64,000 nucleotides of DNA, taken from positions 1,792,001 to 1,856,000 of the forward strand of contig NZ_CP046457.1 of NCBI RefSeq assembly GCF_009734445.1, in the 5' to 3' direction. This document shows, piece by piece, positions 715-26,821 of the stretch; the stretch's first letter is position 1, and each line of letters starts with the position of its first letter. Both the position numbers and the translations under genes were made by a program. The notes under the pieces are model-generated. The model was given only the letters and a program-made list of their open reading frames with translations, was not told the origin of the DNA and did not search any database. The stretch comes from Candidatus Syntrophocurvum alkaliphilum (GTDB taxonomy: Bacteria > Bacillota > Syntrophomonadia > Syntrophomonadales > Syntrophomonadaceae).

Positions 715-1071
715 TGGTGGAGGCGGGGGGAATCGAACCCCCGTCCGAAAGAAAGACCAGCTGAGTCTCTCCGAGCGCAGTCTGTGTACTAAACTTCGCC
801 TTCAGTCGCCCACAGACAGGCTACTTTCTGGCTATCCCCGATTAATTTCCCCTTAAAGCCCCTCGAGGAGAAAGACTTCAGGGTACCCTCACTGTGTGAC
901 GCCCTAAACTAAGCCGTGAGGAAACCTAGCCGGACGAGCTGCTTTAAGCAGCAGCTAGTGAATAATTATCTTCTGCAGTTATTTTAACTGATCCACCTTT
1001 TTAACGAGTCGGTGAAGAACTCGGCTCGCTACTCAACCCACCTTTTCCCTCGTCGAAGCCATTACGCCCCC
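715..1071 (-). ncRNA. ssrA: tmRNA (transfer-messenger RNA)
   Basis: The tRNA-like ends are clear: the 5' end GGGGGCG pairs with CGCCTCC near the 3' end (one G-U pair), followed by discriminator A and an encoded CCA at 717-715. The T-arm GGTTCGATTCC is present, as is the typical 5' text GTAATGGCTTCGACG. The tag reading frame encodes AEDNYSLAAA followed by TAA (about 959-927), a normal hydrophobic degradation tag. It rescues stalled ribosomes together with SmpB, whose gene lies just upstream, and RNase R, one gene further. Length (357 nt) is typical of one-piece tmRNA. Confidence 0.96.
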
Positions 1072-4194: not shown

Positions 4195-4265
4195 AGGGAA
4201 GCAGGGAGGGGTGTTCTTTTGCTTCCTTTAAAGGAAGCAAAAGAACCGTCCCCATGCTTCCTTGC
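4195..4265. repeat. Long GGGACGGTTCT-type hairpin (family 3, copy 1, decayed)
   Basis: The right arm carries GGAAGC, AAAAGAACCGTCCCC and GCTTCC. The left arm is the same in reverse but has GGGGTGTTC where GGGGACGGTTC is expected, so this copy has lost two bases. The variable word is GGAAGC, as in the copy at 43424. It lies between rnr and the HD-domain gene; apart from a weak TATAAT at 4306-4311 I see nothing else in this gap. Confidence 0.8.
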
Positions 4266-20374: not shown

Positions 20375-20604
20375 TTGATACCACTGCAAAGAGTAACTAC
20401 AACAAACTTAAGGCTTAGCAAACATGTTTATCTAAGTCCCGAATAGCAAGGCGTGGTGCATAGATCACGGCTAAGTATAAATAAAAAATCATTTTAGATA
20501 ATAAGTGCTAAGCTAAAATGAAGGTAAAGACCGATGAGTGGCGTGATAAACATGTTTGCTCAGCCGATTCCATACTCTAAGTTTAGCTTTTTGCAGTGGA
20601 ATTA
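20375..20604. repeat. MITE-like element, family 1 copy A
   Basis: About 230 bp with inverted ends close to TTGATTCYRCTGCAAAAAG and internal inverted arms GGCTGAGCAAACATGTTTAT (the outer arm here reads GGCTTAGC). A central palindrome CATTTTAG...CTAAAATG is also present. The same element recurs at 32761, 35075, 38225 and 58264 at full length and at 49815, 54915 and 61583 in reduced form. No open frame of note; mobility is inferred from copy number and inverted ends. Confidence 0.88.
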
Positions 20605-22951: not shown

Positions 22952-23929
22952 ATGGAACCCATTTTAGACATAAGAAATCTTAAAGTTAAATTTAAAAGTG
23001 ATGATAAAATTGTTCGCGCAGTAGATGGTGTGAATCTACAGATAAACAGAGGGGAAACAGTAGGTTTAGTAGGCGAATCAGGATGTGGAAAAAGTGTAAC
23101 ATCTTTAGCCATTATGGGCTTACTTCCGAATAATGGGGATATATCTGATGGTTCTGTCTACTTTAAGGGAAGAGATTTAGTTAAGGCACCAGAAAAAAAA
23201 ATGCAAAAAATTAGAGGTAATGAAATTTCCATGATATTTCAAGACCCCATGACATCACTTAACCCTGTTTTAACTATTGCTGAACAGTTAGAGGAAGTCA
23301 TTCGAATACATGAAGGTGGAAGTAAAAAGGCAATTCGCAATAAAGCTATAGATCTTTTAAATATAGTTAAAATACCAGATGCCAATAGACGTATTTTAGA
23401 ATACCCTCATCAAATGAGTGGGGGTATTAGACAAAGGATTATGATAGCTATTGCCTTAGCTTGTAATCCAACACTGTTAATTGCAGATGAGCCTACAACT
23501 GCTTTAGATGTAACTGTACAAGCCCAAATTTTATCTTTAATAAAAGAGCTTCAGGATGAGCTAGGAACTGCGGTTTTGCTAATATCTCATGATTTAGGAG
23601 TTATTGCCCAAGTTGTAGATAAGGTTTCGGTCATGTATGCAGGACAAATTGTTGAATCTGCTAAAACTCATAACTTTTTTGCATCTCCTAAACATCCATA
23701 TAGTATAGGTTTGCTAGAAACTATACCTAAAATAGATGAATGTCAGGATGAATTAGTTGAGATAAAAGGGATGGTACCAGACTTATCAGAGGAATTTACA
23801 GGGTGTCGCTTTTACTCTCGTTGTCCAAAAGCGATAGATGGTTGCAATACTATTAATCCTAGCTTAATACAAGATAATGAATCTTTAGTAAGATGTTTAC
23901 TTTATTCAGATAAGGTGATGAACCAATGA
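22952..23929 (+). CDS. oppD: Oligopeptide ABC transporter, ATPase OppD/DppD
   Basis: A 325-residue ABC ATPase. Walker A GESGCGKSV (about residues 39-47), Q-loop FQDPMTSLNP, signature MSGGIRQR (an unusual GGI in place of GGM/GGQ), Walker B LLIADEPTTALD and switch LLISHD are present, followed by the C-terminal oligopeptide domain with its Cys motif GCRFYSRCPKA. It overlaps oppF by four bases (ATGA), so the two ATPases are made in step. Confidence 0.95.
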   Translation: MEPILDIRNLKVKFKSDDKIVRAVDGVNLQINRGETVGLVGESGCGKSVTSLAIMGLLPNNGDISDGSVYFKGRDLVKAPEKKMQKIRGNEISMIFQDPMTSLNPVLTIAEQLEEVIRIHEGGSKKAIRNKAIDLLNIVKIPDANRRILEYPHQMSGGIRQRIMIAIALACNPTLLIADEPTTALDVTVQAQILSLIKELQDELGTAVLLISHDLGVIAQVVDKVSVMYAGQIVESAKTHNFFASPKHPYSIGLLETIPKIDECQDELVEIKGMVPDLSEEFTGCRFYSRCPKAIDGCNTINPSLIQDNESLVRCLLYSDKVMNQ

Positions 23930-24894
23930 TGAAAGAAAAAATATTAGAAGTTAAAAACCTAACTAAATATTTTCCTATTAAAAAAGGACTATTTGGGAAA
24001 CAAGTTGATTGGCTTAAAGCAGTAGATGATATTAGCTTTACTGTTTACAAAGGCGAAACTTTTGGGTTGGTTGGTGAAAGCGGATGTGGTAAATCCACAA
24101 CTAGCAACCTTTTATTACAACTAATTGAAGCCGATAGTGGAAGTGTCCATTTTAAAGGCAAAAACATCTTTGAGGGCAACACTAAATCAACACGTGAATT
24201 ACGAAAAAAAATTCAAGTAGTATTCCAAGATCCTTATGCTTCTCTTGATCCTAAATGGCGGGTAGGAAATATTATCGAAGAACCACTAATACTTCATAAA
24301 ATTGGAACTCCAAAAGAACGTCAAAATAGAGCTTTACAGTTAATGGAATATGTAGGCCTAAGACAAGATTATTACTATCGCTACCCGCACGAATTCAGTG
24401 GTGGTCAAAGGCAAAGAATAGGCATTGCGAGAGCTCTTGCCTTAAATCCAGAGATAATAGTAGCCGATGAACCCGTATCCGCTTTAGATGTTTCTATACA
24501 AGCCCAGATAATAAATATGTTTAAAAGGCTACAGGAAGAATTTAACCTAACCTATGTCTTCATAGCCCATGATTTAAGTGTTGTAAAACATATTAGTGAC
24601 CGAGTTGCAGTTATGTATTTAGGAAAAATTGTGGAGTTAGCAACTACACAGCAACTATTCAATAATCCAAAGCATCCTTATACAATAGGTTTGCTCTCAT
24701 CAATTCCTGTAGCTGATCCTTCTAAAAAACAAGAAATGAAGTCAATGGAGGGGGAAGTACCAAGTCCCATTAATCCCCCAGAGGGATGCAGATTTCATCC
24801 AAGGTGCCCACATGCAATAGATAAATGCAGTGAAGAATCACCGACACTAAAAGAAATTGAGAAGGGTCATACGGTAAGTTGTCACTTGTATTAA
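23926..24894 (+). CDS. oppF: Oligopeptide ABC transporter, ATPase OppF/DppF
   Basis: A 322-residue partner ATPase. Walker A GESGCGKSTT, Q-loop FQDPYASLDPKW, signature FSGGQRQRIGIARAL, Walker B IIVADEPVSALD and the C-terminal motif GCRFHPRCPHA are all intact. The N-terminal KNLTKYFPIKKGLFG is typical for OppF. Last gene before a 361-base gap that holds the folded element and then oppA. Confidence 0.95.
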   Translation: MMKEKILEVKNLTKYFPIKKGLFGKQVDWLKAVDDISFTVYKGETFGLVGESGCGKSTTSNLLLQLIEADSGSVHFKGKNIFEGNTKSTRELRKKIQVVFQDPYASLDPKWRVGNIIEEPLILHKIGTPKERQNRALQLMEYVGLRQDYYYRYPHEFSGGQRQRIGIARALALNPEIIVADEPVSALDVSIQAQIINMFKRLQEEFNLTYVFIAHDLSVVKHISDRVAVMYLGKIVELATTQQLFNNPKHPYTIGLLSSIPVADPSKKQEMKSMEGEVPSPINPPEGCRFHPRCPHAIDKCSEESPTLKEIEKGHTVSCHLY

Positions 24895-24906: not shown

Positions 24907-25152
24907 TTGATTCCACTGCAAGAGCCCCTTAGATAGTACGACATCTTGCGTATATAAAGATAAGGAGCACTTGACGGAGCAAGGTAGTATTACCCGGTGA
25001 AAGCGGAGTTAGAAAAGGGGCGCGTCACAGGACGTGACGCGAAGGCTATCGCTCCAAGGACGGAGCGTTAGCCTGGTACCCTTTTATAACGTAGCTTGAA
25101 CCGTAGGTAATACACCTTGTGGAGTCTGGCGACGTTCTTTATATACGCAAGA
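24907..25152 (+). ncRNA. Candidate structured RNA element with two AGGAC-loop hairpins
   Basis: A nested fold is readable by eye: outer 17-bp stem TCTTGCGTATATAAAGA (24944-24960) with 25136-25152; CAAGGT and TATTACC (24980-24994) with GGTAATA and ACCTTG (25106-25119); CGGT (24995-24998) with ACCG (25100-25103); GTTA-AAAAGGG (25008-25019) with CCCTTTT-TAAC (25079-25090). Enclosed are two hairpins, CGCGTCAC-AGGAC-GTGACGCG (25021-25041) and a 12-bp stem with loop AAGGAC (25044-25073). It is clearly more GC-rich than its surroundings. The left edge TTGATTCCACTGCAA matches the end of the family 1 MITEs. It has no useful open frame. It could be an RNA leader of oppA, an independent RNA, or a palindromic mobile element; I do not recognise the family. 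Confidence 0.5.
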
Positions 25153-25255: not shown

Positions 25256-26821
25256 ATGTCTAAGAAGAAAGTTTTCACTACTCTGTTGTTATTGGTTTTT
25301 GTGTTTAGTTTCACGCTTGCTGGCTGTGGTGGAGAAGGAACCGGAGAAGTAGATGATACAACCATCTTTACAGTAGCAAGAAGTACTGACGCTGACCTAA
25401 TTGATCCAGGCTATGCTTGGGCTGAAGGTGACATTGACCCAGTTTATCACGTTTTTGATGGATTACTTCAGTTTAAAAACGATGACTTAGATGTAGCACC
25501 AGCATTAGCTACCGATTGGGAAATGTCTGAGGATGGTAAAACATGGACTTTTTATCTACGCGATGATGTAAAATTCCATGATGGTACAGATTTCAATGCA
25601 GATGCTGTTGTTTTCTCTTTTGAGAGAGTACTAGATGAAGATCACCCCTACTACGGTGTTGTACAAGGTGGTTACTCATACCTTAATTACCTAATGGGTG
25701 ATGTAATAACAGAAGTACGTGCAATTGATGAATTTACAGTTGAAATAGAGCTAGAACAAAAATTTGCTCCATTCATAACCTATATGGCGCACTACTCTCA
25801 ATTTATAGTTAGCCCAACTGCAGTTGAAAAATATGGCGAGAATTTCCCCCAAAATCCAGTAGGTACTGGTCCATTTGTATTTGAAGATTGGAGACAAGGT
25901 GAGTACATAAGACTTGCGGCTAATGATAACTACTGGGGTGAAAAGCCGGAAATTGACACTTTAATATTTAAGGTAGTTCCAGAAACATCAACCCGTTTAA
26001 TGGAATTACAAACAGGACAAGTAGATGCTATTAAACATATAGACCCAGCACAAATATATGCTGTTCAAAATGATGATAATATAGATTTACTTACAGTTCC
26101 AGGTGCTAATCTCTTCATGGGATTAATTAATGTAACCAAAGAACCTCTTGATGATCCAACATTTAGAAAAGCACTTAACCATGCAATTGATATGGATGCC
26201 CTTGTAGATGTAATTTATGAAGGTACCGGAACAAGAGCTATAAATGCTTTACCTCCTACTGTATTTGCCTTTGATGAAACTGCTGGACCATATGAGTATG
26301 ACCCTGAAAAAGCAAAACAATTACTAGCAGATGCAGGATACCCTGAGGGAACAGAAATAGAACTTGCATCCTTTACTCATGCTCGTTCCTATATATCACA
26401 ACCTGTACAAGTAGCTGAGATTATTAGAGCTGATTTACAAAGAATAGGTCTAGACGTTGACATTAATGTTGTAGAATGGGGTACTCTTACTGAAATGAGA
26501 CAAAGTAGAGAGTTTGACGTAGCCTTATATGGTTGGTATGACGTTCCTTATCCAAGTAACTTCTTAAGAACAATGATGCTTGGTGGAAACCAATCCGGAT
26601 ATGAGCCACAAGAGCTAGTAGACATAGCTGATCAGGCTTTAGCTACTTATGATGAAGCAGAACAAGAAAAGCTATATAAAGAGCTTCAGCAAGAATACTA
26701 TGAACAAGCTCCTATAATACCAATTGCTCACAGTAATTACTCCGCAGCAGTTCGATCAGATATTGAAGGATTTCAATTAGATATTATGGGTAATGTACTA
26801 ATGCATGATGTAATTAAGTAA
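25256..26821 (+). CDS. oppA: Oligopeptide-binding lipoprotein, OppA/DppA family
   Basis: A 521-residue extracellular solute-binding protein (SBP family 5) anchored as a lipoprotein: signal MSKKKVFTTLLLLVFVFSF ending in lipobox LAGC (Cys about residue 24). LATDWEMSEDGKTWTFYLRD and NPVGTGPFVFEDW are family landmarks. It delivers peptides to OppBCDF. ATG 25256 follows GGGAGGG. The leader holds a small hairpin CTTCGG-N7-CCGAAG (25202-25220) and, upstream, the folded element, which may set its expression apart from oppBCDF. Confidence 0.95.
   Translation: MSKKKVFTTLLLLVFVFSFTLAGCGGEGTGEVDDTTIFTVARSTDADLIDPGYAWAEGDIDPVYHVFDGLLQFKNDDLDVAPALATDWEMSEDGKTWTFYLRDDVKFHDGTDFNADAVVFSFERVLDEDHPYYGVVQGGYSYLNYLMGDVITEVRAIDEFTVEIELEQKFAPFITYMAHYSQFIVSPTAVEKYGENFPQNPVGTGPFVFEDWRQGEYIRLAANDNYWGEKPEIDTLIFKVVPETSTRLMELQTGQVDAIKHIDPAQIYAVQNDDNIDLLTVPGANLFMGLINVTKEPLDDPTFRKALNHAIDMDALVDVIYEGTGTRAINALPPTVFAFDETAGPYEYDPEKAKQLLADAGYPEGTEIELASFTHARSYISQPVQVAEIIRADLQRIGLDVDINVVEWGTLTEMRQSREFDVALYGWYDVPYPSNFLRTMMLGGNQSGYEPQELVDIADQALATYDEAEQEKLYKELQQEYYEQAPIIPIAHSNYSAAVRSDIEGFQLDIMGNVLMHDVIK

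Follow-up and report, generated by a model that had tools for sequence, protein, structure and literature searches.

The element between oppF and oppA

In the 64,000-nucleotide stretch of the Candidatus Syntrophocurvum alkaliphilum genome analysed here (the window), a folded element occupies part of the 361 bp that separate oppF from oppA in an oppBCDFA operon. Its position raises the question of what the element is, and whether it serves oppA or only happens to lie beside it. The identities of oppB, oppC, oppD, oppF and oppA are backed by Pfam. The features of the locus, in window positions, are as follows.

23926..24894, + strand: oppF (ABC_tran and oligo_HPY, Pfam), upstream neighbour
24908..24921, + strand: TGATTCCACTGCAA, a 14-bp sequence shared exactly with the ends of a MITE family of the window
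24944..25152, + strand: complete palindromic TwoAYGGAY element, 209 bp (~207-211 bp in the relatives G007 and G010)
24944..24960, + strand: outer stem, left arm (17 bp, perfect)
24972..25127, + strand: match to Rfam RF01731, TwoAYGGAY (cmscan, 54.5 bits, full model 1-168)
24979..24998, + strand: middle helices (7+8+4 bp), left arm, with partner 25100-25120
25013..25019, + strand: 7-bp helix below the twin hairpins, left arm, with partner 25079-25085
25021..25041, + strand: hairpin 1, CGCGTCAC-AGGAC-GTGACGCG, 8 bp, with a CsrA-type loop C-A-GGA-C-G
25043..25074, + strand: hairpin 2, 6+6 bp, loop AAGGAC with a C-G closing pair, second CsrA-type site
25136..25152, + strand: outer stem, right arm
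25256..26821, + strand: oppA (SBP_bac_5, Pfam), downstream neighbour

The compact folded unit comprises 209 bp (24944-25152, plus strand), and its outer inverted repeat (24944-24960 / 25136-25152) is 100% complementary over 17 bp. The folding energy of the plus strand between 24880 and 25180 was -127.4 kcal/mol, against -75.8 +/- 5.4 for dinucleotide shuffles (z = -9.6), and none of the 100 shuffles matched the native energy. From the outside inward, the concentric helices consist of the 17 bp stem, a ragged segment of 1+2+3 bp, and then helices of 7, 8, 4, 4, 4 and 7 bp that lead to the twin hairpins, whose loop motifs start 27 nt apart. The G+C content is 0.49 in the element, compared with 0.37 in the left flank and 0.27 in the right flank. 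The nested fold with twin GGA-loop hairpins and the contrast in base content had both been pointed out in a first-pass annotation, and both proved to be real. That annotation placed the element at 24907-25152 with helices of 17, 13, 4 and 11 pairs; the fold and its concentric nesting stand, although the grouping of the helices is only approximate and the compact unit starts at 24944, the extra sequence on the left holding a MITE-like end.

Family identity

A covariance search of Rfam returned TwoAYGGAY (RF01731) with a score above the gathering cut-off of 43 bits. Membership in this family is nearly certain. A new RNA class is ruled out by the match, and the earlier remark that the fold belonged to no recognizable class does not hold. 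On the minus strand, cmscan gave a match to Bacillaceae-1 (RF01690) of 25.2 bits, under the gathering cut-off of 35.

The family dates from 2010, when Weinberg et al. (PMC2864571) reported it in gut, gammaproteobacterial and Clostridiales sequence, rating it probably RNA and "probably not" cis-regulatory. Gardner and Eldai gave both TwoAYGGAY and Bacillaceae-1, the latter as its reverse complement, a predicted role as CsrA-binding sRNAs (PMC4333381). The element agrees with the family in its whole-model score above the cut-off and in the adjacent pair of GGA-loop hairpins on one strand, but its loops are AGGAC and AAGGAC instead of AYGGAY, the first being shorter by one base, and its 17 bp outer stem is not part of the Rfam model. 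It shares twin hairpins with Bacillaceae-1 RNA, which has CsrA-type loops on its reverse complement (PMC4333381), but the match to that family is on the minus strand and sub-threshold. A high-copy dispersed repeat is not described in the cited literature on TwoAYGGAY; the behaviour of the family as a dispersed palindromic repeat is what is new in this analysis, while the link to CsrA had already been published.

Copies in the genome and in relatives

The Ca. S. alkaliphilum genome contains a single full-length copy along with three decayed pieces, and gave one match in the RF01731 search. A 68 bp piece of the left arm, 99% identical, lies between deoB and pdp; among the decayed pieces, L004 keeps the right part and L005 the left end. 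G007 and G010, two genomes that belong to the bacterial family of Ca. S. alkaliphilum, each contain at least 40 copies, on both strands, a minimum fixed by how many candidates were scored. Alignment of 68 of their copies showed that identity falls sharply at CAGGAG...CTCCTG, which delimits a unit of ~208 bp. Target-site duplication was absent from 67 copies of these two genomes, since flank identity equalled that of shuffled pairing for k = 2-11. In G007/G010, a degenerate version of the element's end (CCGGCTAAC..TCCTGC) recurs in the flanks. In a phylum sample, with six candidates scored per genome, RF01731 was found in 49 of 398 genomes, many of them with several copies. No plasmid-borne relatives were found by DNA similarity.

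Outer-stem sequences vary between genomes, and even among the copies of one genome, with complementarity kept. In G260 (L174, L242, L248, L256, L259 and L260) the copies form groups whose outer stems have different but internally complementary sequences, a hint that some process acting on DNA generates or mends the arms. In G271 (L195, L285, L289 and L290) and G161 (L180, L250, L253, L254, L257 and L276) the copies apparently lie within longer repeats with other ends (TAGACAAAGTCAT in G271, for instance), as though one core rode in different carriers. At L177, a second element seemingly begins directly after the first.

The element is similar to MITEs and REP/BIME sequences in that it is short and non-coding, with terminal inverted repeats (17 bp here) and many dispersed intergenic copies in relatives. 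It differs from them in the absence of target-site duplication, and in its RNA-like covariation and constrained loops. The element family is very probably a dispersed, formerly mobile repeat.

The stretch TGATTCCACTGCAA to the left of the compact unit is probably the left end of a longer mobile unit. At L005 a MITE-type left end, followed by CTTAGATAGTA..ACATCTTGC, survives alone, and at L040 (relative G017) the element is enclosed by ATTCTACTGCA...TGCAGTGGAAT ends that resemble the window MITE family. Together with the dispersed copies, these two loci bear out the link to mobile DNA suspected at first reading.

The MITE family with TGATTCYRCTGCAA ends is found at window positions 20376, 24908, 35076, 35292, 49816, 54963, 58264 and 58480; several window copies are 160-230 bp long and 96-99% alike, and dozens of matches to the end exist genome-wide. 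Another group of palindromic repeats, possibly REP-like hairpins, has GGGGACGGTTCTTTG or a near variant of it as its basis and occurs at 4213, 17637, 29135, 40777, 42071 and 43424. A 14-bp AT-rich tandem repeat (AATTCTTAATTTTT, 1082-1181) adjoins the tmRNA gene (715-1071, minus strand).

Insertion in the opp locus

The closest OppA relative (61% identity) is found at L092, assigned to an "uncultured Peptococcaceae bacterium", where the gene order oppD-oppF-oppA-amidohydrolase is the same. Since this nearest matching operon lacks the element and its oppF and oppA overlap, the element was most likely inserted between oppF and oppA in the window lineage, although it may instead have been lost in L092. 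A search of viral contigs with OppF gave no match.

Separate control of oppA had been proposed from the position of the element, which is on the plus strand with its 3' end 103 bp before the oppA start codon, as a leader would be. Among carriers, however, copies of both orientations occur, in gene contexts that are unrelated and with different neighbours. With one copy per genome, judged by eye, tandem contexts were divided about evenly between orientations and only divergent gaps were rare; the gene 3' of the element was antisense at least as often as sense. A dedicated oppA switch is unlikely because neighbouring genes and orientation vary among carriers, and the idea of a dedicated oppA regulator is rejected on orientation and on the element-free L092 operon. 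The published rating of the motif (Weinberg et al. 2010, PMC2864571) also speaks against a cis-regulatory leader, which we regard as very improbable. Side effects of the folded sequence on opp mRNA folding or stability are possible.

Covariation and constraint

Double compensatory changes were found in 9 of the 14 consensus pairs of an 11-sequence alignment, in agreement with the selected fold that the first reading had suggested. In 43 genomes, each represented by one element, the pairs beside both loops are 98-100% Watson-Crick and use AT, CG and GC types. In ~35-40% of these 43 genomes, hairpin 2 has tandem A-G/G-A as the third and fourth pairs below the loop; in other genomes these pairs are often Watson-Crick. 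In most copies C-A-(N)-GGA-Y-G is kept in both loops, and 168 distinct copies have 25-31 nt between motif starts; this collection was pre-selected on a related pattern, and the motif pair was missing at 19 of the 209 loci examined. In the G007/G010 copies, a set that includes copies without the motif, the twelve loop positions diverge by 1.35% against 7.2% in the rest of the element, about five times less (P < 0.001 versus the rest of the element; P = 0.004 versus the hairpin stems).

According to the first-pass annotation, variation without compensatory changes, or many identical copies in unrelated contexts with no transcription, would point to a plain palindromic insertion. Near-identical copies in unrelated places were indeed seen in relatives, but compensatory changes are present, and these, together with the constrained loops, indicate that the element is not a plain palindromic insertion.

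A palindrome under RNA selection is expected to tolerate G-U pairs, but not A-C pairs. For the outer stems of all copies outside G007/G010, 57 G-U and 26 A-C were counted; with one copy per genome the counts were 25 and 16, and G-U made up 3% of standard pairs. The outer stems of G007/G010 gave 22 G-U versus 22 A-C, and the hairpins 10 versus 13. SRP RNA, the control, contained ~13-19% G-U, a noisy value because the method aligned the SRP rod badly. The outer arms resemble an inverted repeat of DNA, and the hairpin heads a single-strand ligand under selection. Given this division between arms and heads, the element is called here a mobile repeat with a CsrA-type ligand, and neither a plain sRNA gene nor a plain MITE.

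Connection with CsrA

The SELEX consensus for CsrA is RUACARGGAUGU, and a CsrA dimer can span two sites separated by 10-63 nt (PMC7652899). The loop motif fits this consensus and the 25-31 nt spacing is inside the bridging range. The resemblance to CsrA sites noticed in the first-pass annotation, a pair of loop-exposed GGA motifs, is thus well founded and is the same as the published prediction (PMC4333381). Like CsrB and RsmX/Y/Z, the element presents at least two GGA sites in hairpin loops at a distance fitting the CsrA dimer, in a genome that contains csrA (adjacent to fliW). Unlike them, it is a dispersed repeat with up to 40 or more copies and only two sites per unit, and is known here from sequence alone.

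In the phylum sample (398 genomes; 296 with csrA, 196 with group II introns and 49 with the element), csrA was found in 47/49 carriers versus 249/349 non-carriers (P = 7e-5), and, by family, in 25/25 carrier families versus 87/122 (P = 0.0007). Genome type explains part of this association, because group II introns, the control, also associate with csrA, although more weakly (165/196 genomes with introns, 84%, versus 131/202 without, 65%). Within the intron-bearing genomes, csrA was present in 29/30 carriers and 136/166 non-carriers (P = 0.054), and in a class sample in 5/7 carriers. Neither csrA nor fliW was detected in the carriers G003, G004 and G426, all of them fragmentary assemblies, despite which most of their copies have intact loops. 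The association between csrA and carriers is supportive, not proof; the odds that the element binds a CsrA-type protein are put slightly above even.

Discussion

The preferred reading, to which we give a probability of about 0.55, is that the element is a palindromic repeat, mobile or relic, and that its RNA strand would offer a predicted two-site CsrA ligand. A TwoAYGGAY copy, belonging to a dispersed palindromic repeat of ~208 bp, would have been inserted between oppF and oppA, and its long complementary arms, unconserved in sequence, would hold up, side by side on one strand, two hairpins whose C-A-(N)-GGA-Y-G loops are ~27 nt apart. The strand with the loops would be transcribed, here most simply within the opp operon mRNA, and the loop pair would most likely serve a CsrA dimer as a ligand with two sites, such that a transcribed copy would either titrate CsrA or anchor it on the host transcript. 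The data themselves show the family identity, the dispersal, a likely insertion at this locus, the added constraint on the loops and csrA-fliW in the genome; action at the RNA level, the choice of CsrA as partner and any effect on opp expression are what we infer. More than 40 copies per genome is unusual for a regulatory RNA, which counts against this reading.

The hairpins of REP and IS200/IS605 elements are folded single-stranded DNA that a mobilising enzyme recognises, and the element could be a palindrome of purely DNA-level mobility, its hairpins and GGA loops being recognised in this way with no involvement of RNA or CsrA. Such a palindrome would account for dispersed copies with sharp ends and no target-site duplication, for stems poor in G-U in which G-U is about as frequent as A-C, for outer stems that differ among one genome's copies while remaining complementary, and for carriers without detectable csrA. 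However, the loop consensus coincides with a known RNA-binding site, down to the closing C-G pair and the dimer spacing, and csrA is commoner in carriers than in non-carriers, which leaves this explanation unlikely, though to be taken seriously. An independent CsrA-sequestering sRNA like CsrB/RsmZ, transcribed from a promoter of its own and with copy number setting the sponge dose, would agree with the two CsrA-type hairpins per element, with the presence of csrA in nearly all carriers and with copies that are independent of gene orientation. Nevertheless, the sole promoter-like site in the window is at chance level, no terminator was found in the window at the plus-strand 3' end of the element, and the high copy number and decayed copies resemble a repeat more than a maintained gene; we consider such an sRNA improbable.

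When TwoAYGGAY was predicted to bind CsrA, the known CsrA-sequestering RNAs all came from Gammaproteobacteria (PMC4333381). If the element is a mobile repeat with a CsrA ligand, as we favour, a tentative extension is that a mobile palindrome spreads ready-made two-site CsrA ligands in Clostridia-like genomes, where transposition alone might rewire or titrate the CsrA network. Should TwoAYGGAY copies bind CsrA, the predicted Clostridial CsrA ligand would be a testable one that multiplies as a repeat; should they not, a catalogued RNA family would be due for re-description as a mobile DNA palindrome.
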